Below, in pieces: positions 7,794 to 25,760 of a stretch of DNA of 42,021 bases; the first letter of the stretch is position 1, and every line of letters starts with the position of its first letter. A model generated the notes under the pieces. The model was not told the origin of the DNA. It did no database searches and worked only from the letters and a program-made list of their open reading frames with translations. The stretch spans positions 1 to 42,021 of the IMG/VR virus record IMGVR_UViG_3300032058_000001, one strand, 5' to 3'. The translations under genes and the position numbers were made by a program. The DNA comes from a virus.

Positions 7794-7825
7794 CCCCCTA
7801 TAGAGTATATATACTCTATAGGGGG
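7794..7825. repeat. 32-bp perfect palindrome
   Basis: The two halves CCCCCTATAGAGTATA and its exact complement meet at 7809/7810 with no spacer. The AT-rich centre flanked by C and G runs could extrude as a cruciform or bind a dimeric or tetrameric protein. Confidence 0.85.
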
Positions 7826-7844
7826 TTATATATATCTATCAATA

Positions 7845-7889
7845 GCACTCTCTATGAGAAGCAAAGATATTGCTTCTCATAGAGAGTGC
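7845..7889. repeat. 20-bp inverted repeat with 5-base loop
   Basis: Perfect complementarity between 7845-7864 and 7870-7889, loop AGATA. The long exact stem without a T-run suggests an operator or replication-initiation hairpin rather than a terminator. Confidence 0.85.
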
Positions 7890-7921
7890 AGATAGGAGAT
7901 AGAGACATACTGTCTACCGAA

Positions 7922-7945
7922 AGAAAAGAGAATACTCTCTTTTCT
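7922..7945. repeat. 10-bp AT-rich inverted repeat
   Basis: AGAAAAGAGA, four-base loop ATAC, TCTCTTTTCT. A smaller 5-bp inverted repeat (AGACA/TGTCT) sits at 7903-7915. They are the third and fourth members of the palindrome cluster. Confidence 0.75.
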
Positions 7946-8114: not shown

Positions 8115-8151
8115 TTGACAAAGCCGTCGCCGATGTGGTATGATGTTTGCG
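8115..8151 (+). promoter_or_regulatory. Rightward promoter of the replication operon
   Basis: TTGACA at 8115-8120, 18-base spacer ending TGTGG, TATGAT at 8139-8144. A leader of roughly 46 bases includes a small GGGAA/TTCCC hairpin and the GATGAGGTGAG ribosome site before the ATG at 8198. Confidence 0.8.
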
Positions 8152-8197: not shown

Positions 8198-11100
8198 ATG
8201 AGACCGACAATCGCTAATGGAAGCATTCGGACTGAACGCAAACCGCGCCGTGCTGAAGAAGTCCTTCAGCAGGGTATCGTGAGGGCTTTGTATGGGTGCG
8301 GGGAGAACAAAGCCCCTCAGCCGAGCAAGTGGAACACGCTAACGGGTGTTCACCCTACGGCTCATACTGCTCAGTTTGTGGGCGGTGTTGTAGCCGATGG
8401 GGTCATCGTCATAGATATTGAAGGGCGACGGAAGCAGGGCTACTATCAACATCTGTCTGACGCTGAGTGGGCGGAGATGATGGAGCAGGTGCGCCTGCTA
8501 ATGGAAGGGCAACCTTATGTTGTCTACACCGCCTCTACGCCGTCAGGGGGACTACACATCGCTATCAGGGTAGACGACCGCTTGCGCTTTGACCGTTCCG
8601 TCCGTAAGACAAACGCCCTGTGTCTTACCTTTGACCTGCTCCCTGCGGGCAACAACATCGTCATAGCAGGCGACGGACGGCAGATACACCTACTTCGCCC
8701 TGTCGCCAACGCGACCCCCTTTGACCCTACTGAGGAACTTGTCCCCCTGCTGTTGAGGGAAATTCCCCAAGCAGGGTTTGAAGATAGCGAACTGTTCCGC
8801 CCCAACCCCTTCGCAGAGGGCGGGCGTAATGAGAACCTCTACCGCTTCCTTCGTGCCCTGAAAGCGCGGGGCGTTTTCGGGAACCCCCTGAGCGACGAAG
8901 TGTCGGACTTAGACTTAGAGTTGGTGGAAGCGGTGCTACCTTACCGTTGTAAGCCCTACTACGATGAGCCGTTCCCCACGCACGCGCTAACGCAGGCGCA
9001 CACCTTAGACTTTGAGGAACAGTTGGAGCGGTTATCCGACCTGTCCGTTTTTGACCACAACCGACGCCTGCTAAGGAAGTATGTGGTCTCCTACAACGGC
9101 GAGCGGTTGCGGTGGGAGAAACAGCGCAAGGAACCTACCCCTACCCCTGCTATGGATGAGGATACCGACTTCGGCGGGTGGATGACTATACTGCCTGCAA
9201 CCGAAGTGAAGCGGATGGTCATCCCTGATGATACCGATTTGTTCTCCTTCCTGCGCAGGGAACACATCACCCTACTGCACGCGCCTGCTAAGACGGGGAA
9301 AAGCACCTTCGCTTATCAGTTAGCCGAAAGCCTTGCTTGGGGTATCCCCTTCGCGCCGTTGGGCGAACAACCGACTGTGCCCTGCAAGGTGCTTTACATA
9401 GACTTAGAGAACGACTATCGGCACATTCAGAACAAACTGTGGCTACCGTCCCCGAACCTGCAAATAGCACGGGTCAATCCGCAACAGTTGATGTTGCTCA
9501 CTGCCGACAACCTTTACCACCTGCTGAGACATCATCTTACAGGGGGCGACTACGATGTAGTCATCTTTGACAACATCTTCCGTGTTGCGGGGGTAGACCT
9601 CAACAAGGCTGAGGATGTATCTCGGCTGATGATGATGTTTGAGGGTGTGGCGCGGGAATTCGGTTGTGCGATGTTCCTCATCCACCACAGCCGAGAGGAT
9701 AATATGGGTACATTCAAAGCCTTCGGTAGTGTCGTCTTTCAGAACATCCCTGCTTTCCTGTTGGAACTGCGCCGTGTGCCCGATACATCGCAGGCAAAAC
9801 TGAAAGTGCGCGGGCGCGGAGACGGCGATATGGAAGTGCGGTTGGACTTCCGCGACGGACGCTACTTCCCCTGCCGAACCGAAGTGCTGTCGTCGGTAGA
9901 ACGGCAGTTATTGCAGAGCCTGAACCGCGACGGCGAAATGAGGTTAGACGACCTGCTGTTGCTCTACACTCGCCCCACTGTGCGCAGGCTTGTGGAGAAG
10001 GGCTTAGTGCGGAAGGTGGGCGACAGGGTGAAACTGACACAGGCGGGTAAGGAAGCCCTGCTTCCCGATGAGGGACATCCCGTGTGGAACCTCTATGCTA
10101 CTCTGCGACACCTACCTGAACTGCCTGTGCCTTACAACAACCCACCTTTCGTCTTTTGGTTCTTCAGTGAGTTTGAGGAACTACCGACAGCAGACGACTA
10201 TGAGCAGTTTGCGCCGACCTTCACAGAGGAGCAGGCGGACGCCCCTGAGCAGGAACTGTTCCCCGACCCTGCCACGCCTGCCCCCCTCTGTGAAGATGAT
10301 GATGGCGACGACGACCCCGACGGCTCTCCTTCGGGAACCTTTTCGGACGAAACTTCGTATGTAGAAGAGGAGACGCCGATGGATGAGATAGAAACGCTGT
10401 TGGACATATTGCCCGAAGACTTTCATCACGCACACCTCATAGGCGATGGGGCAGAAGACGAACTTTCCTCTTCTGCCCACTCTTTCCCCCTTGAGGAGCC
10501 TGAGCAGGTAGCCCCCGCTGATGAACCTGCTAAGACCGCTGTATGGCACATCTTGGAAGATACTAAAAGGCGGGTGGTCTACTTGAACGGTGTGCGGAAG
10601 CACGCTACCTTCCGCGTCTTAGAGAAGCGGGGCGAGGTAATGAAGGTAGTGGAGCGGGGCGAGGGGTTCAAGTATGATGAGAAACGGCACTTCATCTGTC
10701 CGCAGTCTGTGCTTGGCGGACGCTTCTTTGACAAGTATGAGCCTATCGCCTTTGACGACCTTATCGTTGGCACTTTAGATGTGGAGACGCCGACGCTTCA
10801 GTCGGGCGACGACGCGGAGATATTGGTAGTCGGAGCGGGCGTCCGCTACCCTGACGGTAGCGTAGAGGACGCCTACTTTGACGACATCTACACAGCCCTG
10901 CTGTGGCTGAAGCAGAGGGGCATACACATCCTTGTCGGGCACAACCTTTTCGGCTACGATATGAGGCTCCGACCGTCCGAGTGGGAGCGTGCGGGCGGAC
11001 TGTTGCGGAAGGCGTCCTTCCGTCAGGAACAGAACGAATACAAAGAGTATGCCTACTACGCCTTTCCCGAATTCGCTGTTGTGGACACCTTCCTGCTGTC

Positions 11101-12490
11101 CTTCAAGGCGGAGCAGATGGGTATCTTCAAACCCGAAGAACGGGGTTTACACAACCTCGCACGCCTGCTTGGTGTTGCAGAGCGTGAGGAAAAGGCGGAG
11201 TGGGGCGAGATACACACCGACATAGAGAAGGTCAAAGAGCGACTGCGGGGCGACCTACTTGAAGCGATAGCCGTGTTCCGCACGATATGGCGGAACCTGC
11301 ACCCTATCCTGCTTTTCGTTCCTGTCAGCATTCAGGACTTGTTCCTGAAAAGCACGGGTAGTTTGGTCTGCTACATCCTCATCAACGAAGCCCTGCGAGC
11401 GGGCGAGCCTATCCCTGCGCCGAAGGAGAAGGAGCGGTATGAGGGCGCGTTAGTCTACGCGACCGACGCGGGGGTCTACTACAACATCATCACCGCTGAT
11501 GTCGCCTCTCTGTACCCCTCCATAATGTTGCAGGAAGAGGGTTGCTCTCATCCCCTTGCACGGGCGAAACTGAAGGAACTGACTGAACTACGCCTGCACT
11601 ACAAACGCCTTGCGAAGCAGGGCGACGCTGAGGCGAACGCACTGCAGAACGCCTTGAAGATACTCATAAACTCCTTCTACGGCTTCTACGGCACGGGCGG
11701 ACTGCCGTTCAACGATATGGCGGTGGCGTCCAACATCACTGCGAAGGGCAGGGAACTGTTGTCTAAGATGATGGAAAGAGCGCGGGGTGTGGTGGTGGAA
11801 GCGGACACCGACGGTATCATCGTTTCCCTGCCTGCTTTGCCGACCGCCGACGACCACCGCTTCTTTGAGGGACTACTGCGAGACGAAGGGTACACTATTG
11901 AGACGGCGCAGTATGACGCCTGCTTGTTGCGGGCGATGAAAAACTACTCTCTGTTCACTTTTGAGGATGGCGAGTGGAAGGCGAAGGTGGTGAAGGGTTC
12001 CTCGCAGAAAAGCAGGGCGCGAACGGACGCTGTGTTGGAACTGACGCGCCTGCTACTCAACGACTTCCTGACTAAGCAGTTTTCGGTAGACCGAACGGTT
12101 GCGCATATTGAGAGGCTTCTTTATGAACATCAAAAGCACATCAAGTCTGAAAAAGTCTCGGAAGTTTCTAAAAACCGCCGAGCGAGCCTGCTGTCCGACG
12201 CGGACATCTTGGGCAGTCGGTTCTACTACTACTTCACCGTCGGCACAACCAAGACAGGCAAGTATTCCTATCCACAGAAAGGGACTGCCCGTGTTAGCAG
12301 GCGCGGGGCGAAAGATGAAATGATGGCTCCGCCGAATTTGCAAAAGCACGCTGAAGATTTGCTGAATGTTGTGCAAATGTACGCAGACATCATCGGCAAA
12401 GACACCTACGGCGAAATCAAACAGCGCGTCAAAGTCCTTATACCACCTGCTGATAAGTGGGTGAGTATGTGGCAACAACGGGAGGCATAG
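8198..12490 (+). CDS. Fused primase - helicase - family B DNA polymerase
   Basis: 1430 residues that seem to carry a whole replication core. Residues about 20-170 look like an archaeo-eukaryotic primase/polymerase domain: VIVIDIEG (an acidic pair of D-x-E form, near 70-76), TPSGGLHI (near 114-121) and LTFDLL (143-148). Residues about 330-560 look like a RepA/RecA-type ATPase: Walker A PAKTGKST (363-370), Walker B DVVIFDN (453-459) and FLIHHSR (493-499). A winged helix follows (about 565-620), then an acidic, Pro-rich linker (about 660-780). Residues about 850-1430 form a family B polymerase: exonuclease motifs LDVET (860-864) and HNLFGYD (915-921), motif A DVASLYPSI (1101-1109), motif B KILINSFYG (1154-1162), motif C ADTDG (1202-1206) and a KNY element (1248-1250). 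The Exo III tyrosine is not obvious. It replaces the separate primase, helicase and polymerase genes, of which no others are seen. ATG at 8198 follows GAGGTGAG. Confidence 0.9.
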   Translation: MRPTIANGSIRTERKPRRAEEVLQQGIVRALYGCGENKAPQPSKWNTLTGVHPTAHTAQFVGGVVADGVIVIDIEGRRKQGYYQHLSDAEWAEMMEQVRLLMEGQPYVVYTASTPSGGLHIAIRVDDRLRFDRSVRKTNALCLTFDLLPAGNNIVIAGDGRQIHLLRPVANATPFDPTEELVPLLLREIPQAGFEDSELFRPNPFAEGGRNENLYRFLRALKARGVFGNPLSDEVSDLDLELVEAVLPYRCKPYYDEPFPTHALTQAHTLDFEEQLERLSDLSVFDHNRRLLRKYVVSYNGERLRWEKQRKEPTPTPAMDEDTDFGGWMTILPATEVKRMVIPDDTDLFSFLRREHITLLHAPAKTGKSTFAYQLAESLAWGIPFAPLGEQPTVPCKVLYIDLENDYRHIQNKLWLPSPNLQIARVNPQQLMLLTADNLYHLLRHHLTGGDYDVVIFDNIFRVAGVDLNKAEDVSRLMMMFEGVAREFGCAMFLIHHSREDNMGTFKAFGSVVFQNIPAFLLELRRVPDTSQAKLKVRGRGDGDMEVRLDFRDGRYFPCRTEVLSSVERQLLQSLNRDGEMRLDDLLLLYTRPTVRRLVEKGLVRKVGDRVKLTQAGKEALLPDEGHPVWNLYATLRHLPELPVPYNNPPFVFWFFSEFEELPTADDYEQFAPTFTEEQADAPEQELFPDPATPAPLCEDDDGDDDPDGSPSGTFSDETSYVEEETPMDEIETLLDILPEDFHHAHLIGDGAEDELSSSAHSFPLEEPEQVAPADEPAKTAVWHILEDTKRRVVYLNGVRKHATFRVLEKRGEVMKVVERGEGFKYDEKRHFICPQSVLGGRFFDKYEPIAFDDLIVGTLDVETPTLQSGDDAEILVVGAGVRYPDGSVEDAYFDDIYTALLWLKQRGIHILVGHNLFGYDMRLRPSEWERAGGLLRKASFRQEQNEYKEYAYYAFPEFAVVDTFLLSFKAEQMGIFKPEERGLHNLARLLGVAEREEKAEWGEIHTDIEKVKERLRGDLLEAIAVFRTIWRNLHPILLFVPVSIQDLFLKSTGSLVCYILINEALRAGEPIPAPKEKERYEGALVYATDAGVYYNIITADVASLYPSIMLQEEGCSHPLARAKLKELTELRLHYKRLAKQGDAEANALQNALKILINSFYGFYGTGGLPFNDMAVASNITAKGRELLSKMMERARGVVVEADTDGIIVSLPALPTADDHRFFEGLLRDEGYTIETAQYDACLLRAMKNYSLFTFEDGEWKAKVVKGSSQKSRARTDAVLELTRLLLNDFLTKQFSVDRTVAHIERLLYEHQKHIKSEKVSEVSKNRRASLLSDADILGSRFYYYFTVGTTKTGKYSYPQKGTARVSRRGAKDEMMAPPNLQKHAEDLLNVVQMYADIIGKDTYGEIKQRVKVLIPPADKWVSMWQQREA

Positions 12491-13381
12491 ATGGAAGTCA
12501 GAAACCCACATCTACTTGAGCGACTGAAGCAGGGAGTGTCGTATACCGTAGTGATGAACTACGGTGTATGCCAATACCGTATCTACCTGCAACTGCAGGC
12601 TCCTAAGAGCCTTGTTTTCCCTGAACAATTACGAGGGCTAATCCTTCATAAGTACCTTGAGAAGGTGATGAAGGGCGAGCCGTTGCCTCGCGTCTCTGAA
12701 GCCGTCCGCTCTGTGCTTCACTTGGAAGACCGAGCCGATGTGGTGCAGAACCGCACTACTTTCCTGTCTACGGATGAGAAGATAGAGTTTCTCCATAAAG
12801 TGAAAGAGGAACTGCCGTCTTTCATCCGCGCCTGTGAGGAGAAGAAGGCGGACTTAGAGGGAGCGGGGGTGTCCATCGTCAGTGCCGAGCGGGGCTACGA
12901 CCTTACCCTAACGCAGGAACATCCCCCTGCTACCGTCCGCATTTCCTGCCATCCCGACCTCATCTTGGCGGACAAAGACGGCTTAGTCGTCGTAGACCTG
13001 AAGACAGGTAAGACTGCAAGGAACTCACTCTACGGCGACCAATTAGTCCTCTACGCTTCCATCTTAGAGCGGTTGTTGGAGACGCCGTGCCGTAGGATAG
13101 AGATTTGGCAGTGGGACGGGAACGGTATCACTACCTACTCGCGCGACCTGACGGATTGGGAGAAGACTTCCGTGCTGTTGCGCCACGCGCACATCGGTAG
13201 TGTTATTCAGTCTAAGGTGGCGAAGTTAGAGGACGGCGCGACGCCGAGCAAACTGTTCCGCCCCAATACTCGGTCTCGGTTCTGTAATGAGCGTTCTTGC
13301 TCTTACCACCACCTTTGCCCGTTTTTTGCCGAGAAACAACGACGACAACAGGAGGTAGACACAGATGATACAGAACAGTAA
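12491..13381 (+). CDS. Cas4/AddB-like Fe-S PD-(D/E)XK nuclease
   Basis: 296 residues. The nuclease core motifs are present: an early RGLILHKYLE with the typical His (about H53), CHPDLILADKDGLVVVDLKTGK with the catalytic Asp, Asp and Lys (about D155, D169, K171), and QLVLYA (about Q184-Y188). Four cysteines are placed as in Cas4 and AddB iron-sulphur nucleases: one in the N-terminal VCQYRIYL (C27) and three in the C-terminal FCNERSCSYHHLCPFF (C265, C270, C276). It is probably an exonuclease that processes ends for the Rad52-like annealing protein or degrades host DNA. The start ATG directly abuts the stop of the polymerase gene, with GGGAGG as ribosome site. Confidence 0.85.
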   Translation: MEVRNPHLLERLKQGVSYTVVMNYGVCQYRIYLQLQAPKSLVFPEQLRGLILHKYLEKVMKGEPLPRVSEAVRSVLHLEDRADVVQNRTTFLSTDEKIEFLHKVKEELPSFIRACEEKKADLEGAGVSIVSAERGYDLTLTQEHPPATVRISCHPDLILADKDGLVVVDLKTGKTARNSLYGDQLVLYASILERLLETPCRRIEIWQWDGNGITTYSRDLTDWEKTSVLLRHAHIGSVIQSKVAKLEDGATPSKLFRPNTRSRFCNERSCSYHHLCPFFAEKQRRQQEVDTDDTEQ

Positions 13382-13943
13382 GTTAGTGATATTAGAAGGC
13401 GTAGAGGGCGTCGGTAAGACCACGCTTATAGAGCAACTGAAGTCCGAACTGTCTGATGAGATGAGGAAGGCTGTCGCTTTCATTCACGAAGCAGGCGTGC
13501 AGGGGCTTCCGTATGTTCACCGAGAGCCGACCTATTGGTTCCGCCGTCTCAGGCTCTATGTGGATGTGCCTTTCCTGCTTGGCGAGGGGATGTTCCTCAT
13601 CGCTGAGCGGTCTTGGCTCAGCGGGTGGTGTTATGAACCGCGAATGTATCAGCCTATGCTGATGAGTATCATCTATCGGGGCATAGGGGTTGCGCCTGAG
13701 AATGTCTATGTGGTTGTCATACAGCCCGAAGAGTGCCCTGCCGAAGATGACCGCGTGCGCCTTGCGTATGAACGCTACGGCGAACTGATAGCCTACGGCT
13801 CGCCGTTAGGGGAGCAGGTGGTAGGTGTGCGAACGATTGAAGAAGCGAAAGACTTCATTCTGCGCCTGCTACAACAACACATAGAGCGAGGTAAAGACGA
13901 TGAGACAGAGACGACCGACGCTAATGCCCCTGTTTCGGGATAA
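13365..13943 (+). CDS. Thymidylate-kinase-like P-loop kinase
   Basis: 192 residues. The N-terminus LVILEGVEGVGKTTLIEQL has the TMK-type P-loop (GVEGVGKTT, about 12-20). HREPTYW (about 52-58) fits the substrate-binding loop and AERSWLSGWCYEP (about 80-92) fits the DR(Y/W)--S signature with E-R in place of D-R. The usual product would be a deoxynucleoside diphosphate for phage DNA synthesis; the exact nucleotide cannot be told. It overlaps the nuclease gene by 17 bases, and GGAGGT lies inside the end of that gene. The C-terminal 25 residues are polar and probably disordered. Confidence 0.8.
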   Translation: MIQNSKLVILEGVEGVGKTTLIEQLKSELSDEMRKAVAFIHEAGVQGLPYVHREPTYWFRRLRLYVDVPFLLGEGMFLIAERSWLSGWCYEPRMYQPMLMSIIYRGIGVAPENVYVVVIQPEECPAEDDRVRLAYERYGELIAYGSPLGEQVVGVRTIEEAKDFILRLLQQHIERGKDDETETTDANAPVSG

Positions 13944-14464: not shown

Positions 14465-14500
14465 GGAACCCAAAGCGCGGGGGTTATCGTCTATATGGAT
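14465..14500 (+). promoter_or_regulatory. Late promoter P1 (ECF-sigma-like)
   Basis: GGAACC (14465-14470), 17-base spacer, CGTCTA (14488-14493). The spacer AAAGCGCGGGGG-TTAT is nearly the same as in the elements at 35174 and 38912. The ATG of the next gene is 19 bases on, with AGGGTGAGAGG between. Confidence 0.6.
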
Positions 14501-17578: not shown

Positions 17579-20494
17579 ATGGAACCAAAACTACCATATG
17601 GAAACCCCCTGCTTCAGCCTCTCAATCCTGAAGCGATGGAGTATCTGAAGCAGGTGCTGAAGGCGGACAGCATACTTTCTCTTCCTCAGAAGTTAGCGGG
17701 GCGGGTGAGTATGCGCGACTTGGCGCATTACGCGCTTGGCGAGTATCATCTTATCCCCCCTGCTCGCCGAGAGTTAGCCCGTGCGGTCTTTGAACTCTAC
17801 CGTCCGTCTCCTATGATGGTTCCCCCGATGTTTTCCGCGCCGTCGGTAGACATAAGGTTGCCAACTGCTCAGGACATAGGCACACCGCAACCGCAGGATG
17901 AAGAAGAAACAGGGTGGTGGAACGGCTTTTGGCGGACGCTCTATGCGATGACCACCACCTTAGCCTACTCTCCATTAGCCCTCGCAAAGTCCCTTGTTTT
18001 CGGGTCAGCAAGTGCAGTATTGGGCACTACGGGGTTGACCCCCGATATGCTCAAAGATATAATGCAATATCTAAACCCCAACGATGAAGAGCAGGGGTAT
18101 TACTATGCTACTGCAGAGTTTTTCTCGCGACTTTACGAGGCGGGGGGCAACCCTATTGACAACATCACATCCTTCTACCGCGACCGTCTAAAGAGTAGCA
18201 TAGGGGAAGACTTGCTACGGGCGGGGTCTATCATCGGCGCGTCCATCCCTATTGGGATAGCAGGGGCAATAGAAATGGGTGTTGCAGGCTTAGAGACTGT
18301 TTCCCAAATGCTTGGGATGGCGACAGCAGGGGAGAACCCCTTCACAAACAAAAACGCTGTCTACGCCTTTCAGCCCCTGCTTCGCTCTATGGACGCTAAT
18401 ACTCGGCTGTTCACGAAGGAAGGGAAGTATTGGGACTTGGGCACGCAACTGTTGCGCTATCAAAATGCGCGGTTCCCCATCAACGCCCCGCTTGCTACCG
18501 ACAATATGCGGGTACAAATTACGACAAAGACGGGGCAAGTGTATCAAAGAGACATACCGATAGAGAGTTTGGAAGTGGAACTTGAACGCCTGCGTGCTAC
18601 CTTCCCCGAAGTGCGGATAGTTAGCGAAGACCCCCTCAGAAGCCCCCTTGTTTTCAACCTTTTCGGTAAGACTATCAACCCCACCTACGCCTTTGGGTTG
18701 TTAGCCGAAGTCGCTTTGCCGTTCCCCACACGGGGTGTAGCAGGCGCGGTGCGATTGGCAAAGGGCGCAAGTCGCTTCTCTGACGAATTCGGCTTCTTCG
18801 CTCGCCGTGCTTTCGCTCCCCTTTCGGAAGGAGCAAGGTTGGCGCAACGGACGGAAGCCCTTGCAGAACTTATCTTCCTGCCCTCTTACACCGCAGGCGC
18901 ACTGCCTTTCGGCTTAGCAAGCAGGCTGTTAGGGAAGGCAGGGGTGCGTATGCCCCAAGTCAACATCGGAGCAGGGGGACGCTTCGCGGGGCTAATGCAT
19001 ACGCTCAACAAGGCAAACGAATTCTTCTTCGCTCAGCACTTCATCCCTTTTGACCTGAGTAGCGGGTATAATGCTACTATGCACCGCCTGTGGGACAAGG
19101 TGATGAAGGAAGCACGGGACGCGGGCATAAATGTCGTAGAGCGGGGCAAAATCAACGACGACCTTCGGCACTTCCTGAACGCGCCTGCTGAGGAAGTGAT
19201 GGCGAAGATGGCGAACGATGAGTATCACCCCCTGCTAAAGCACATCTTTCAGAAGGAAGGTATCACGGCAGAGCGAGTGCTGACAGACTTGTTTGAAGCA
19301 CGCCGTGCTATCTTCTCCAAGTATGGGGAACAAATGAGCCTCATCGCGCACAACCTACACCGAAGCGAGATGAAGTTTAGTATCGGGCGAGGGTTGGCGC
19401 GGGCGAACCTTGCAGTAGGAGACGCCGTGCAACGAATGTCAACAAAGGGGCTAACTAAATGGCTCTACCCCGCTTGGGGCTTTCAGGACACCGTTCATCA
19501 CCTAACCTCTTTTGGTACGACCCTTGCGACCGCTATGCAGGGACGGTTGCAGGTGATGGAGCGCACAGGGGCGGAGATGATACGAGGTCTAACGGGCGAC
19601 CCTGCTTTCAAACAAAGTGCCCTCTATCGGGCGCACAGGGAACTGTCGGAACTACGGGACGCTATACGGGCGCAATATGGCGACCTCAACAGCCCCCTTG
19701 CTCAAAAGTTAGCGTCCCTGCAGATAACTGACATAGATGAGGCGTTGAAGGCGGGGGAGAAGTTTATGACGCGAACGGGCATACTGCCCGACAGTCAAAT
19801 TTACGCTCGCCTTTTTGAGAAAGGCGACGACGGCGCACCCGTGCTTCAGAAGGTCTTAGATGAGTGGCAGAGGATGAATGCAGAACTTGCTCAGACAAAC
19901 AAAGCCTTGACCCCTGAGCAGGCGTGGAACGCTGTGCCAAAGGACATCAGGGATAAAACCAAACTGCTTCAGTCCGAAGCCGAAAGCCTCTACAAGTGGT
20001 TTCAGGGGACAGAACCTGCAGAGCAGATGTTGGCAGTAGGTATCTTAGGGCGCGGTGCTGATATGACCGACGACTTGGGTAAATACTTCCTAAAGACGAA
20101 AGCCCTGCGCGGTCTCGGCTTCACACCGCAGGCGTTAGATGAGTTAGTGGAACACTTCAACAAGATAGAGGGAAGTATAAACCTGACCTCCGACCAACGC
20201 CTAAAGTTTCAGGGGCTACTCTACCGAATGCTTCAGAACAAAATCTTCTCGCCTGACGAATTAGTGGAAGCCCGACGCTTCCTTCAGGACATCGGGTTCC
20301 CTGCCGACAAAATTGACGATATGCTGAGTGCCTTCCAAGCAGGGCGGTCTCTTATCAGTGCAAACGAAATTGCCTATGACTTCACCTACTTTGAAGCCAA
20401 ACGGCTCCTTGACAAGATGAAGAAAGCACGCGACAAGTGGGAAGAGGCATTCTTCAAGACGGCAACGGAAACTTTCCCCGACTGTGTTCCGTAA
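17579..20494 (+). CDS. Large internal virion / ejection protein 1
   Basis: 971 residues. Two hydrophobic stretches (about 122-150, with TLAYSPLALAKSLVFGSASA, and about 215-240, GSIIGASIPIGIAGAIEMG) could insert in a membrane. The rest is mainly helical, with a second hydrophobic zone near 375-390. No enzyme motif is recognised. Size, helical nature and placement before another giant protein fit a podovirus ejectosome protein (T7 gp15/gp16 class) by analogy only. The ribosome site is weak (TTTGAAAG), eight bases after the preceding stop, so translation is probably coupled. Confidence 0.6.
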   Translation: MEPKLPYGNPLLQPLNPEAMEYLKQVLKADSILSLPQKLAGRVSMRDLAHYALGEYHLIPPARRELARAVFELYRPSPMMVPPMFSAPSVDIRLPTAQDIGTPQPQDEEETGWWNGFWRTLYAMTTTLAYSPLALAKSLVFGSASAVLGTTGLTPDMLKDIMQYLNPNDEEQGYYYATAEFFSRLYEAGGNPIDNITSFYRDRLKSSIGEDLLRAGSIIGASIPIGIAGAIEMGVAGLETVSQMLGMATAGENPFTNKNAVYAFQPLLRSMDANTRLFTKEGKYWDLGTQLLRYQNARFPINAPLATDNMRVQITTKTGQVYQRDIPIESLEVELERLRATFPEVRIVSEDPLRSPLVFNLFGKTINPTYAFGLLAEVALPFPTRGVAGAVRLAKGASRFSDEFGFFARRAFAPLSEGARLAQRTEALAELIFLPSYTAGALPFGLASRLLGKAGVRMPQVNIGAGGRFAGLMHTLNKANEFFFAQHFIPFDLSSGYNATMHRLWDKVMKEARDAGINVVERGKINDDLRHFLNAPAEEVMAKMANDEYHPLLKHIFQKEGITAERVLTDLFEARRAIFSKYGEQMSLIAHNLHRSEMKFSIGRGLARANLAVGDAVQRMSTKGLTKWLYPAWGFQDTVHHLTSFGTTLATAMQGRLQVMERTGAEMIRGLTGDPAFKQSALYRAHRELSELRDAIRAQYGDLNSPLAQKLASLQITDIDEALKAGEKFMTRTGILPDSQIYARLFEKGDDGAPVLQKVLDEWQRMNAELAQTNKALTPEQAWNAVPKDIRDKTKLLQSEAESLYKWFQGTEPAEQMLAVGILGRGADMTDDLGKYFLKTKALRGLGFTPQALDELVEHFNKIEGSINLTSDQRLKFQGLLYRMLQNKIFSPDELVEARRFLQDIGFPADKIDDMLSAFQAGRSLISANEIAYDFTYFEAKRLLDKMKKARDKWEEAFFKTATETFPDCVP

Positions 20495-20525: not shown

Positions 20526-23500
20526 ATGAAGATAGTGCGGTGTTTGCGGTTGCCCGATGAGTTAGACGCTATCCTGATGGATTTCGTCAGGAACAGCGAG
20601 GGACGGTTGCAACAGACCATAAAGACGGCTCCAAAAGCGGGGCAAAGTGCCGATGAGTTAGCCGAGACGCTCAACCTCAATTGGTCTGCCTTCGCGTCCA
20701 AGCAGTTTCCGAAGGAAGTGCAGGCGAAGGAAATGCCTTCGCTCTTCATCAACGCGCCGAAGACAACGCAAAAGCCAAACGGGAAGGTTGTCTACGCTTT
20801 TCGCCATCCCACTAAGGTAGACGAATTTCAGAAGTATCAGGCGGAAATGCAGGCTCAGTGGCGGGCTTTCTTCAATAAGCAGGGGGTTCAGATAGATGAG
20901 GAAGCCTTCTACCGCCTGTCGGGGATGTCGGGACTGAAGCCGATGTTGGGCGACCTGTCTGCTACTTCTGCCCCTGAGCAAGCCCTGCTGTCCGTCGTAG
21001 ACGAAATTACTGCGCGGGTAGCGAACGCGCCGAGCGGAATGGCGATGTCTGCCCTGCCCAAATTTTCCTCTGACCCTGCTACCGATATGCTTCTGAGCAA
21101 GTATGTCGCCGAAATCTACGGGAACTTTACTTCCTATCTGCGAGGGCGGTATAGCGACGCAGGCATAGAGGGCATAGACGCCATCATCTCCCTACTAAGT
21201 CAAGCGCGGGGCGAGTACCTTAGTCGCACTATGACCCACCTCACGGGCATACAATCCGTCCGACAGCCTATCGCCAATCCGTCGCAGATAACTGTCGCGG
21301 AAGTAAAAAGTTTCTTGGAGACGCAAAAGGGGCTTCCTCGCAGTGAAGTAGAGGCGTTAGCACAGCGACTAAGTGAATACTTCGGCGAGGCGGACGGGCT
21401 GTCTTCGCCCGATGTCGCCTTCCTTCAAGTGTACCTTTTAGATGTCATCAACACTGCGCCGAACTCTATGAAGGGGATAGGTCAGGCGGACGACCTAAAC
21501 CACATCCGCTCTTCTGTCTACCGCGCTTGGCGTATCCCTCAGTCTGTCCCCAATCGCAGAAAAAAAGTTAGTGCTATCATAGAAGACCTTTTCAACAAGC
21601 GCATTCCTGAAGATACCCCTGAGCCTCTCCGCCGATGGCTACAACAGCACGGGTGGACGGACGCCAAGCCGTCCGCGCCAAAGGTAGAAAGCAAGGCGGA
21701 GCCTTCTGCGCCTGCTAAGCCTCAACCTGAGCCTGCCCCTCCCCCTGAGCCTACCCCTGCTTCTGCGCCTACGGCGTTTGAAGAAGCAGTGCCTGCGGTA
21801 GAGCAGACGCCTGCGCCTACGGCGCGGATAGAGACCTTCCCGTCCTTTGATGATTGGACGCCTCAGCGGGCGAACGGCGCGATGATAGAGTTAGAGAAGA
21901 CGGTATCTTCTGTCCCCACCAACCGCGCTACCGCCGTGCTGAAGCGGGTGTTTGGTACACCCACAACCGCCAACCTTCCGTCTGACCACTTTCAGGAACT
22001 GTTAGGGAGACTGAAAGCGTCCGAGCGAATGCTTTCAAGTCCCTTCTTCAAAGAAGGCGTAGAGAGCCTGCCCCCTGAAGTCCGACAGGACATAGCCGAT
22101 TGGCTTCGGTCTCTTCGTCGCTTCGGAGAAACCGTAGAACGGGGGGTCAGTGAAGCCGACCGCGCTGAATTCATCCGTATCGTAGATGGCTACCTTTCGG
22201 CGTTTGGAGAAGCGAAGCCTGCCCCTGCTTCCGCCGTAGATGAGGCGTTAGAGCAGATAGCCGAGCCTGCGCCCGTGCGGGCGGAGCCTGAACCTGCCCC
22301 TGTTGCGCGAACAGAGGAACTCACCTCTACCCCCGTGCGGGCAGAGGAGCCTGCTTCCTCTGAGCCTGTCCCTATGCGAGCAGAGCCTGAGCCTGTGCGG
22401 ACAGAGGAACCTGCGCCTGTGCCTACAACTACTCCGCCCCCTTCGGAGCCTGCGCCTCCGCCCCCTGCTACGCCTACGACGCCTCCGCCGTCGGGAGCCA
22501 TAGACCTACCGAAGGGCATAGAGTTTGAAGAGTTTGGCGAGACCCTGCGGGCGATTATGATGGAATACGGCTTGCCGACCATACGGGGCGCGAAGCCTGA
22601 ATACGGCAAGATGGAGCAACTCATCTCCAAATACTTTGGGTCAAACGGCTCCCTTAGTAGCATACAGGACACCATTCTGACGGCTTTGAATGAGATGGTG
22701 AGCGTCAACGCGGTGAACGCTCATCGGGGGATAGGAAAGAGCCGTTTCTTCACCATCCAAGACGGGCGGGTAGTATTGAAAAAGGGGTTTCAGGATGAAC
22801 TCACCGCGCAGATAAACGCCCTTCGGCAAGCGGAACCCCTGCTACACTTCCTCAGCGACGACCAAATTGCGGGCTTCTTGGTCTTAGAGGACGCACTGAA
22901 GGCGTTAGCGCACTCGGCAGGCGATGAGGCTTTGGAAGCCTTGCCGTTCTTCCACAACTTCCTTGCTTTCCGCCTGCTCAATCCTGAGCAGGTAGACGAA
23001 CTGCCTACTATCATCTCTACCCTTGCGGGGGCGATGAAGCAGGGGGACGCGCAAACGGCAAGGAAAGCCGTAGAGGACATAGAGGTCTTTATCAAACAGC
23101 GCGTCGGCGAGCAGTGGTTCCAAGAAGTAGAAGACAAACTGAAAGACATCTTCACAACAGGTATCATCTCTCGCCTCATCACCGCCTTCTTCCGCAAGTC
23201 GCCCGTGCTATACTACGGCGACGGCAGGCTGACCGAAGGGGAGTGGTCATCGTGGGGCACTTTCGCAAAGCGACAGTTTGTAAAGACCCTGCTCACTAAA
23301 GACGAAGCGTGGGCAACTTTTCGCGCAAACTTCGCCAATCCGTTAGAGGTAGACAAACTGAAGGAAGGCATACTGACCACCCCTGTTGTTAGACACCCTT
23401 ACCTTATGCACGCGCTACTCACCTATGCGGACGAAGCAGGGTTCAATCTGCCTGCCTTAGTCGCGACTGCTGATGTGTTCCGTCGGCACATAGACGCTAT

Positions 23501-25760
23501 GCGCAACCTTTACTTCAAAAGCGGTATCCCCCCGTCTACCCTTGCCTCTATTGACGACTTCGGCGTCAGCGGGTACAGGGCTTGGCTGACAGAACTGCGG
23601 ACTGCTCTACAAAGGCAGGGCTTAGATGACGCCGACCGCGTTTTAGAGCAGGCGTTGGAAGCGGTCAAGGGTGTAGAGGACGACCTGTTGGGCTTTGAGG
23701 TGTTGAAAACCATCTTAGGGTTTACTAACGACTTAGACGGACTGCCTGCGCTGAAGCAGGCGATGAACAATCTGTCTAATGTGATGTTTGCCCTGCACGG
23801 CTTCTACAAGAAGGCAGTCGTTGCGAACATCGGCGAGGAACTGTTGCCCATCTTTCGCGCTTTTCAGGATGAGGGGCTGATAGGGGAAGTTATCGTCTCT
23901 GAGCCGAACTTCTTCAGCGGGCGCAGTCTGCGGAAGGCGTTGAAGGAAGAGTATGGCGATGTGGACGCCGACACCGCGTTCCGCTACTTTGTAGACGGGC
24001 TACCGCCGTCTGTCCGCTCCATCTACTACACAGCGCAGACGGCAGGGAAGGGGGCAGAGTTTGACCTGTTTATACCTTCCTTCGTCGCCGACCTTATTGC
24101 ACAGCCGAACTTTCTGCGGACGCGACAGGTATGGGACACCCTCAACAACATCTTCAAGTCGTCGGTTATCGTCTACAACCCCCCTGCTCTTATCCGCAAC
24201 GCCTTTACAAATACTATGCTGATGTGGTATGTCGGCGGGGGCAACATCTTCAGAAAGAGCATACGGCAACTATCACCCTATGGCGACATACCGCGCTCTT
24301 TGGAGACAGGCTTAGCCGAAGCCTTCAGCCTGCAAAGAGAAGCCATCCGAGAGATAAAGAGCGGGTCAAAGTTAGCGCGGGACTTGGAAGCCATAGACCC
24401 GTCCATCAGCCTGCTTCGCACCTATGAGCGTCTCCCTGAGTGGGAAGTTATCAACAGCACGGATAGCAGGGCAGTGCGGGGGTTCCGATGGATAAGCAAC
24501 CGCGCGTTTCTAAAAAGTGCGCACGCTTTCCAAACGATGTCCGAGACCGCCGCGAAGTACGCTTCGGTCAAGGAACTGCTACGGCGGTGGGGTAAGTTAG
24601 ACAATTACACCGTAGACGACCTTATCAAGGCGGTTGCCGAGACAAACGCTTGGCTTATCAACTACCGAGTAGTGCCCCCTGCTGTGCAGTTTATGCGCAA
24701 GTATCTTGGTCTGTTCCCCTTCATCACTTTCCAACTCAATACCCTCATCAACTTCGCTCGCCATCCTGAGCGGTTCTACACCGACCTGCTACGGGGCGGG
24801 GTCTATATGGAGCGTCTGCACAACATCTTCTACTTCCTCGCGAACGACCCCCTGACGGCGCGGTACGACATACGGGGCGAACAAAAGACCCTGTTCAAAC
24901 TCTTCCCTGAGTATATGCGCCATAATCCCCTGCTTGTTGCCGTACCTGACGACAGAGGCGATGTATGGGCGATGGACTTGACCTATTGGTTGCCCATCGG
25001 TGTCTTTGAGACGCAGTATGACCCCCATCCCCTGCTTGGCGAAATGCCTATGCTTCTACCTCAGTTAGCGACCATCGGTTGGATGACCGACTACAAAGAT
25101 TTAGTGCGATATTTCGGCGGGGCTATCCGTCCCCTTGCCGAAGCCATCCTCAACAAGAACTTGCTTACGGGGCAACCCATCTACGATGAGAACCTACCTG
25201 AGTTAGAAAAAGCGCGGGCGATAGGGGGCTTCCTTGTGGGGCAAATCCCCTTCGCGCGGTGGTTGCTTGGTATGGGCTTCGGAGCGCGGGAAGTGAACCC
25301 GATAGGGCGCACCCGAAGCACCGACACCCTGCTTCAGCGCGGGAGTGCGCTGATGGGTATCCGCGCCTACCATATGGACGCGCTTCAGGACGCGCGGATA
25401 AAGGAACTGCAGGCGAAGATGAACGACATCAACCGCACCATCATATCCCTTATGAACAACCCTACGCTTGCTCCGCAACGCAAAGCGGAACTTACTCAGA
25501 TGTACCAAGAAAAACTCTATGACCTACAACAGCAGTTAGATGAGCAACAGTTAGTATGGCTTCCGATGGTGGTACGGTTGGACGGTAAGACCCCTACCTA
25601 CATCAACACCCCTGCTGACTTCGGGGCGGTGATGGGCACTTTGCAGGCACAGCGACGCCTAAAGACGCGAGAGGACTTTTTCAACGAAGCCTACCCTCCT
25701 TATATGCCTCCACCTATGCCATACGACTTAGCAGGGGCGATGGCAGAAGAAGAGGAGTGA
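20526..25760 (+). CDS. Very large internal virion protein, 1744 residues
   Basis: Longest reading frame in the window. Residues about 379-440 and 575-660 are Pro/Ala/Glu-rich disordered linkers made of repeated EPAP, VRAEPEP and RTEEPAP units. They separate an N-terminal domain, a middle domain and a C-terminal part of over 1000 residues. The C-terminal part contains NPPALIRNAFTNTMLMWYVG, FLKSAHAFQTMSETAAKYA and a glutamine-rich coiled end (LYDLQQQLDEQQ). The order (linkers, then a long helical region with hydrophobic patches) fits a large ejection or 'polyvalent' virion protein. No lytic transglycosylase or polymerase signature was seen. GAGGTGAGACG precedes the ATG. A 31-base gap separates it from the 971-residue gene; the two may act together. 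Confidence 0.62.
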   Translation: MKIVRCLRLPDELDAILMDFVRNSEGRLQQTIKTAPKAGQSADELAETLNLNWSAFASKQFPKEVQAKEMPSLFINAPKTTQKPNGKVVYAFRHPTKVDEFQKYQAEMQAQWRAFFNKQGVQIDEEAFYRLSGMSGLKPMLGDLSATSAPEQALLSVVDEITARVANAPSGMAMSALPKFSSDPATDMLLSKYVAEIYGNFTSYLRGRYSDAGIEGIDAIISLLSQARGEYLSRTMTHLTGIQSVRQPIANPSQITVAEVKSFLETQKGLPRSEVEALAQRLSEYFGEADGLSSPDVAFLQVYLLDVINTAPNSMKGIGQADDLNHIRSSVYRAWRIPQSVPNRRKKVSAIIEDLFNKRIPEDTPEPLRRWLQQHGWTDAKPSAPKVESKAEPSAPAKPQPEPAPPPEPTPASAPTAFEEAVPAVEQTPAPTARIETFPSFDDWTPQRANGAMIELEKTVSSVPTNRATAVLKRVFGTPTTANLPSDHFQELLGRLKASERMLSSPFFKEGVESLPPEVRQDIADWLRSLRRFGETVERGVSEADRAEFIRIVDGYLSAFGEAKPAPASAVDEALEQIAEPAPVRAEPEPAPVARTEELTSTPVRAEEPASSEPVPMRAEPEPVRTEEPAPVPTTTPPPSEPAPPPPATPTTPPPSGAIDLPKGIEFEEFGETLRAIMMEYGLPTIRGAKPEYGKMEQLISKYFGSNGSLSSIQDTILTALNEMVSVNAVNAHRGIGKSRFFTIQDGRVVLKKGFQDELTAQINALRQAEPLLHFLSDDQIAGFLVLEDALKALAHSAGDEALEALPFFHNFLAFRLLNPEQVDELPTIISTLAGAMKQGDAQTARKAVEDIEVFIKQRVGEQWFQEVEDKLKDIFTTGIISRLITAFFRKSPVLYYGDGRLTEGEWSSWGTFAKRQFVKTLLTKDEAWATFRANFANPLEVDKLKEGILTTPVVRHPYLMHALLTYADEAGFNLPALVATADVFRRHIDAMRNLYFKSGIPPSTLASIDDFGVSGYRAWLTELRTALQRQGLDDADRVLEQALEAVKGVEDDLLGFEVLKTILGFTNDLDGLPALKQAMNNLSNVMFALHGFYKKAVVANIGEELLPIFRAFQDEGLIGEVIVSEPNFFSGRSLRKALKEEYGDVDADTAFRYFVDGLPPSVRSIYYTAQTAGKGAEFDLFIPSFVADLIAQPNFLRTRQVWDTLNNIFKSSVIVYNPPALIRNAFTNTMLMWYVGGGNIFRKSIRQLSPYGDIPRSLETGLAEAFSLQREAIREIKSGSKLARDLEAIDPSISLLRTYERLPEWEVINSTDSRAVRGFRWISNRAFLKSAHAFQTMSETAAKYASVKELLRRWGKLDNYTVDDLIKAVAETNAWLINYRVVPPAVQFMRKYLGLFPFITFQLNTLINFARHPERFYTDLLRGGVYMERLHNIFYFLANDPLTARYDIRGEQKTLFKLFPEYMRHNPLLVAVPDDRGDVWAMDLTYWLPIGVFETQYDPHPLLGEMPMLLPQLATIGWMTDYKDLVRYFGGAIRPLAEAILNKNLLTGQPIYDENLPELEKARAIGGFLVGQIPFARWLLGMGFGAREVNPIGRTRSTDTLLQRGSALMGIRAYHMDALQDARIKELQAKMNDINRTIISLMNNPTLAPQRKAELTQMYQEKLYDLQQQLDEQQLVWLPMVVRLDGKTPTYINTPADFGAVMGTLQAQRRLKTREDFFNEAYPPYMPPPMPYDLAGAMAEEEE

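Follow-up and report, generated by a model that had tools for sequence, protein, structure and literature searches.

A single reading frame of a tailed bacteriophage that appears to join primase, helicase and family B DNA polymerase

The IMG/VR virus record IMGVR_UViG_3300032058_000001 (a single metagenome-derived record of 42,021 bases, referred to as the window) encodes a terminase, a portal and an HK97-type capsid protein, which mark it as a tailed phage (Caudoviricetes), and a protein of 1430 residues, referred to below as the replicase. Comparison of its sequence with family libraries and known systems makes it quite probable that the replicase is an intact, working primase-helicase-polymerase chain, in which a primase-helicase half precedes a family B DNA polymerase (PolB). 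Compared by sequence with the fusions of this kind that have been described, what is new in the replicase is the order of its domains, the family of its helicase (RepA/RecA-like, not superfamily 3, SF3) and the clade of its PolB.

The open reading frame (ORF) starts with ATG and has no internal stop, and a Shine-Dalgarno match of 7 nucleotides (GAGGTGA) precedes it. The codon-usage log-likelihood is positive for this frame in all 60-codon blocks, including those of the linker between the two halves, and negative in every block of both shifted frames of the plus strand. The 1430-residue frame is thus confirmed as real, with a coding signal along its full length. The gene, its parts and the signals upstream of it are as follows:

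8198-12490, plus strand: the whole gene, a fused primase-helicase-PolB of 1430 residues (ORF, Pfam, codon usage)
8279-8707, plus strand: putative Prim-Pol-type archaeo-eukaryotic primase (AEP) domain, residues about 28-170 (custom profile, motifs, alignment to the relative L146)
8810-9067, plus strand: PriCT-1-like helical region, residues 205-290, with EGGRNENLYRF (alignment with the PriCT-1 segment of the custom profile)
9200-9832, plus strand: RepA/RecA-like helicase (AAA_25), residues 335-545, with Walker A K368, Walker B D458 and HH at 496-497 (PF13481)
9890-10057, plus strand: winged helix, residues 565-620 (sequence pattern; alignment with the C-terminal portion of L146)
10085-10162, plus strand: conserved W-x4-TLR...P...WF stretch, residues 630-655 (common to phage primase-helicases)
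10163-10537, plus strand: acidic low-complexity linker, residues 656-780 (composition, codon usage)
10775-11254, plus strand: 3'-5' exonuclease, residues 860-1019, with D861, E863, N916, D921 and D1019 kept (motif comparison)
11498-11947, plus strand: PolB palm and fingers, residues 1101-1250 (Pfam, motif comparison)
8115-8144, plus strand: sigma-70-like promoter, TTGACA-18-TATGAT, with TG before the -10 element (11/12 consensus match only)
7794-7945, no strand: three perfect stem-loops with arms of 14, 20 and 10 base pairs (bp), in the intergenic region that precedes the replicase gene and separates it from a divergently oriented neighbour (folding)

The helicase and PolB identities are certain as sequence assignments. 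The Pfam family AAA_25 (PF13481) matches residues 351-502 with an E-value of 1e-19, above the Pfam cut-off, with Walker A read as 362-APAKTGKST-370 and Walker B as 453-DVVIFD-458; the same part matches phage RepA helicases in tblastn and, weakly, the RepA structure 1g8y in PDB. PolB with its exonuclease occupies residues 781-1430 and matches DNA_pol_B (PF00136) with an E-value of 4e-15, also above the cut-off, and PHROGs agree with Pfam on both assignments. All catalytic residues of PolB are retained (D1101, K1154, N1158, Y1161, D1203, D1205, K1248 and Y1250), within motifs A (1101-DVASLYPS), B (1154-KILINSFYG) and C (1202-ADTDG-1206). The exonuclease motifs Exo I (860-LDVET-864) and Exo II (915-HNLFGYD-921) are complete; Exo III departs from the Yx3D pattern, with the Asp (D1019) retained and the Tyr, which is present in 45 of the 46 PolBs compared, replaced by Arg1015. 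On account of this replacement, weak proofreading is predicted for the replicase. The preliminary description of this DNA, made from the sequence alone, had read primase, ATPase, winged helix, linker, exonuclease and polymerase in this order, placed their motifs to within a few residues of the positions found here, and seen no other primase, helicase or polymerase gene. The latter holds for the window ORFs searched against family libraries, some small ORFs lying outside that search. Its domain reading stands firmly for the helicase and PolB by the Pfam and PHROG matches, and for the primase on weaker but consistent evidence; its single tri-functional chain is, from the sequence, the best reading.

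The last recognisable piece of the primase-helicase half is the conserved stretch at residues 630-655, and the acidic linker noted earlier is evident in the composition of residues 661-780, where Asp and Glu make up 30-33%. Such a long, acidic, low-complexity segment could also be a place where the product of a genuine frame is divided, by proteolysis or by initiation at ATG728 within the linker, to leave a free PolB of 703 residues beside the primase-helicase. ATG728 has AGGAG 6 nucleotides upstream, its product would match standalone PolBs in size, and kin phages operate with separate proteins. As an internal start, however, ATG728 does not rise above background, since equally good Shine-Dalgarno sequences stand before 17 of the 242 internal in-frame ATGs of the window, and Glu-rich codons alone mimic such sequences; we regard separate products as unlikely. 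No support was found for the cleavage site that the preliminary description had proposed in the linker, and a tether is the simpler reading because the unfused primase-helicase of a kin phage is already acidic after its winged helix.

The N-terminal part is assigned as a Prim-Pol-type primase on weaker but consistent evidence, namely AEP motifs in the expected order, a custom profile, and a relative whose domains stand in the same order. The motifs are D73-I-E75, S116GGLH120 and F145-D146 (DxE, sGGxH and hD), accompanied by NKAP..W at residues 37-45 and FDLLPAGNNIVI at residues 145-156. The custom Prim-Pol/PriCT profile, made from 36 Prim-Pol loci and run on 1526 sequences, finds the replicase with an E-value of 1.2e-4, compared with 0.11 for the top unrelated decoy and 0.41 for the top one of 300 shuffles, and SGGLH, FDL and GGRN fall on the corresponding stretches of the profile. 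The relative (L146/L029) combines Prim-Pol (PF09250, E 9.5e-7), PriCT_1 (E 7.5e-4 in L146, below the Pfam cut-off), AAA_25 and a winged-helix-like end, and its alignment with residues 1-330 gives a z-score of 6.4, against 0.5 for the control. Residues 1-328 have no match in Pfam, PDB or phage tblastn. This lack of a Pfam match and the weak profile score would suit a DNA-binding remnant that is no longer an active primase, which would make the protein effectively a helicase-PolB fusion; we hold this to be rather improbable, all three AEP motifs being retained in order and no other primase having been found among the window genes searched.

Contrary to the preliminary description, which knew of no described fusion with PolB, such proteins are on record. 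Their group has carried the name HelPrimPolB since 2020 (PMC7544198), and a 2025 study in Nucleic Acids Research showed that GP55, from lactococcal phage 1706, is one chain that primes, unwinds, extends and proofreads, with the domain order SF3 helicase-primase-aHD-PolB (PMC12205980); matches covering at least 80% of GP55 occur in 252 phage records. The replicase resembles this group in uniting an AEP-type primase, a helicase and an exonuclease-bearing PolB within a single tailed-phage protein about 1300-1430 residues long, and GP55/HelPrimPolB is the main replication protein of its phage, as the replicase would be. Unlike GP55, it follows the order primase-PriCT-RepA/RecA helicase-winged helix-PolB, and its helicase is of the AAA_25 family and second in the chain, whereas that of GP55 is SF3 and N-terminal. 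Only a short stretch around Pol motifs A and B aligns between the two (E 3e-5), and placement of the replicase PolB inside the HelPrimPolB/GP55 clade was rejected (AU test, p 0.022; long branches are a caveat). Since the replicase joins a primase-helicase of the AEP-RepA kind to a PolB outside the GP55 clade, its fusion is probably separate from that of HelPrimPolB.

Each half of the replicase has unfused counterparts. AEP-RepA primase-helicases have been described in phages and plasmids as the PrimQH, All3500 and InversePrim families (PMC5862659). Those compared here (L146/L029, L126-L129) likewise join an AEP to a RepA-type helicase, often with PriCT and a winged helix, at 25-29% identity to the replicase over the helicase, but end past the helicase or winged helix, none being observed here with a polymerase; in InversePrim, PriCT precedes the primase, unlike in the replicase. 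Standalone PolBs of Salinibacter, Nostoc/Anabaena and IMG/VR phages share its exonuclease and polymerase motifs at about 24-37% identity, and standalone PolBs (the G3-like, EpsilonN-like clade of PMC7544198) are the nearest tree group to the window PolB; they differ from it in being unfused and in keeping the Exo III Tyr. A different fusion was observed in an Armatimonadota genome (L269:1854-6974, plus strand), in a frame of 1707 residues with a Toprim-like part, a P-loop ATPase, acidic repeats (DEDPFADGEP), an exonuclease and a PolB. It is like the replicase in its N-terminal primase-like part and P-loop ATPase, in its acidic low-complexity linkers and in that its PolB falls in the same broad clade. 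It is unlike the replicase in that only a sequence pattern marks the primase-like part as Toprim-like, the ATPase belongs to another family and the contig is bacterial.

In phages related to the window by their virion genes, PolB stands without a primase-helicase joined to it. The IMG/VR phage G333 (identity of 44% for the major capsid protein, 32% for the large terminase subunit and 32% for the portal) has a separate Prim-Pol-PriCT-RepA-winged helix protein of 773 residues with an acidic stretch past the winged helix; G002 (41%, 31% and 27%, respectively) has a separate PolB, and its helicase is DnaB-like. Beyond the acidic stretch, the primase-helicase of the kin phage (L286:11419-13737, minus strand) has an additional C-terminal domain of unassigned kind. 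As both G333 and G002 keep PolB unfused, the fusion looks derived and specific to the window lineage, and it would most likely have arisen by joining an AEP-RepA primase-helicase gene to a PolB gene, both still separate in related phages. Four phages that are more distantly related have an AEP-RepA gene on the same strand as PolB and upstream of it; the two overlap in L141, their ends meet in L131 and L139, and in L142 other frames lie in the gap of about 1.8 kb that separates them. Grouping of the window PolB with those of L131, L142 and L141 was rejected by a tree test (p 0.002), so these phages are best read as parallels to the ancestral state and not as the ancestor itself; they demonstrate that the gene order expected of a precursor does occur. 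Another AEP-like gene, with an SGxKGF motif and about 640-660 residues, was observed upstream of PolB in numerous related phages (L134, L136, L137, L143-L145 and L147). That an assembly or sequencing error joined two genes of a G333-like phage is very improbable: the virion-gene kin do have PolB separate and the fusion has been seen once, but the in-frame codon bias runs unbroken across the linker, a promoter-like site and a Shine-Dalgarno sequence of its own precede the gene and the next gene (from 12491) follows it directly, and in G333 the primase-helicase and PolB genes are on opposite strands with about 5 kb between them, so that a simple mis-join would not yield an in-frame fusion.

The reading of the replicase as a working three-part chain gains support from GP55, which proves that a chain of this type can perform all of these activities (PMC12205980). 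Several observations weigh against it. The fusion is known from one assembly, and the scans made revealed no second genome with it. Prim-Pol (PF09250) has no match in the window, the AEP domain being invisible to Pfam, and AlphaFold models of the N-terminus, built on 2 and 4 aligned sequences, had pLDDT values of only 35 and 38 and were not used. RepA helicases are known as hexamers, so that a hexamer of the replicase chain would bear six polymerases. The likelihoods attached here to this reading and to its alternatives are not mutually exclusive.

Regarding the scans, both halves were not matched in one gene in 50,697 phage records or 72,556 plasmids, and tblastn of phages and plasmids gave no match over 80% of the replicase. 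Neither six motif or peptide scans of IMG/VR nor a scan of genome contigs (best 80 loci) returned a match to both halves; the IMG/VR and genome-contig scans reach only sequences holding the chosen peptides, and metagenomes lay outside the search. Low-degeneracy peptides taken from the whole protein had no match in IMG/VR, the pattern NSFYGFYGT gave none either, and a scan with the primase-helicase alignment gave no confirmed relative. Among 691 genomes (291 of Armatimonadota and 400 of Chloroflexota), no match spanned both halves, the Toprim-like fusion described above being the one different case.

We infer the activities, primer hand-off, origin and oligomeric state of the replicase as follows. 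The AEP domain and PriCT-1-like region would lay primers, the RepA/RecA-like helicase would unwind, PolB would extend, the winged helix may bind DNA or the origin, and the acidic linker would act as a long tether joining the primosome half to the polymerase half. Replication would begin with loading of the winged helix and a RepA ring on the hairpin region; the primase part would then synthesize a primer, and the tethered polymerase would take it over. The hairpin region (three hairpins within 152 nucleotides, folding z-score -12.6) is the only cluster of its kind in the window, and has no Rfam match at the gathering threshold. G333 has two hairpins, of 12 and 14 bp, upstream of its primase-helicase gene (L286:14248-14355, z-score -7.4). 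In RSF1010, the RepB' primase acts at ssi hairpins together with the RepA helicase, and by analogy with these the hairpin region is a candidate origin or priming site; a plain alternative is a region controlling divergent transcription. An 11-mer, CAAAGCCGTCG, is common to the intergenic regions of the window (about 8119-8129) and of the kin phage (L286, about 14485-14496), possibly by chance.

Immediately past the replicase stop lies a PD-(D/E)XK nuclease of a phage exonuclease family (12491-13381, plus strand; PDDEXK_1, E 9e-16), and next to it a P-loop protein (13365-13943, plus strand) with weak similarity to thymidylate kinase (E about 1e-5, below the cut-off). Further on, two very long proteins of 971 and 1744 residues (17579-20494 and 20526-25760, plus strand) have no significant family match.

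It is conceivable, though doubtful, that the replicase is a separately evolved all-in-one enzyme, that is, an RSF1010-like set of AEP primase, RepA helicase and hairpin priming sites that has acquired its own polymerase. If so, the genome would be started and copied from the hairpin region by one protein with little help from the host. Together with GP55, the replicase suggests that primase, helicase and PolB have become fused on more than one occasion, with helicases of different kinds and with the domains in different order. The kin phages with split genes would provide a before-and-after pair in which the benefit of fusion, through primer hand-off or the coupling of unwinding to synthesis, may be examined. 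For isothermal amplification, a single-protein replicase that works de novo and has a RecA-type helicase would have practical appeal.

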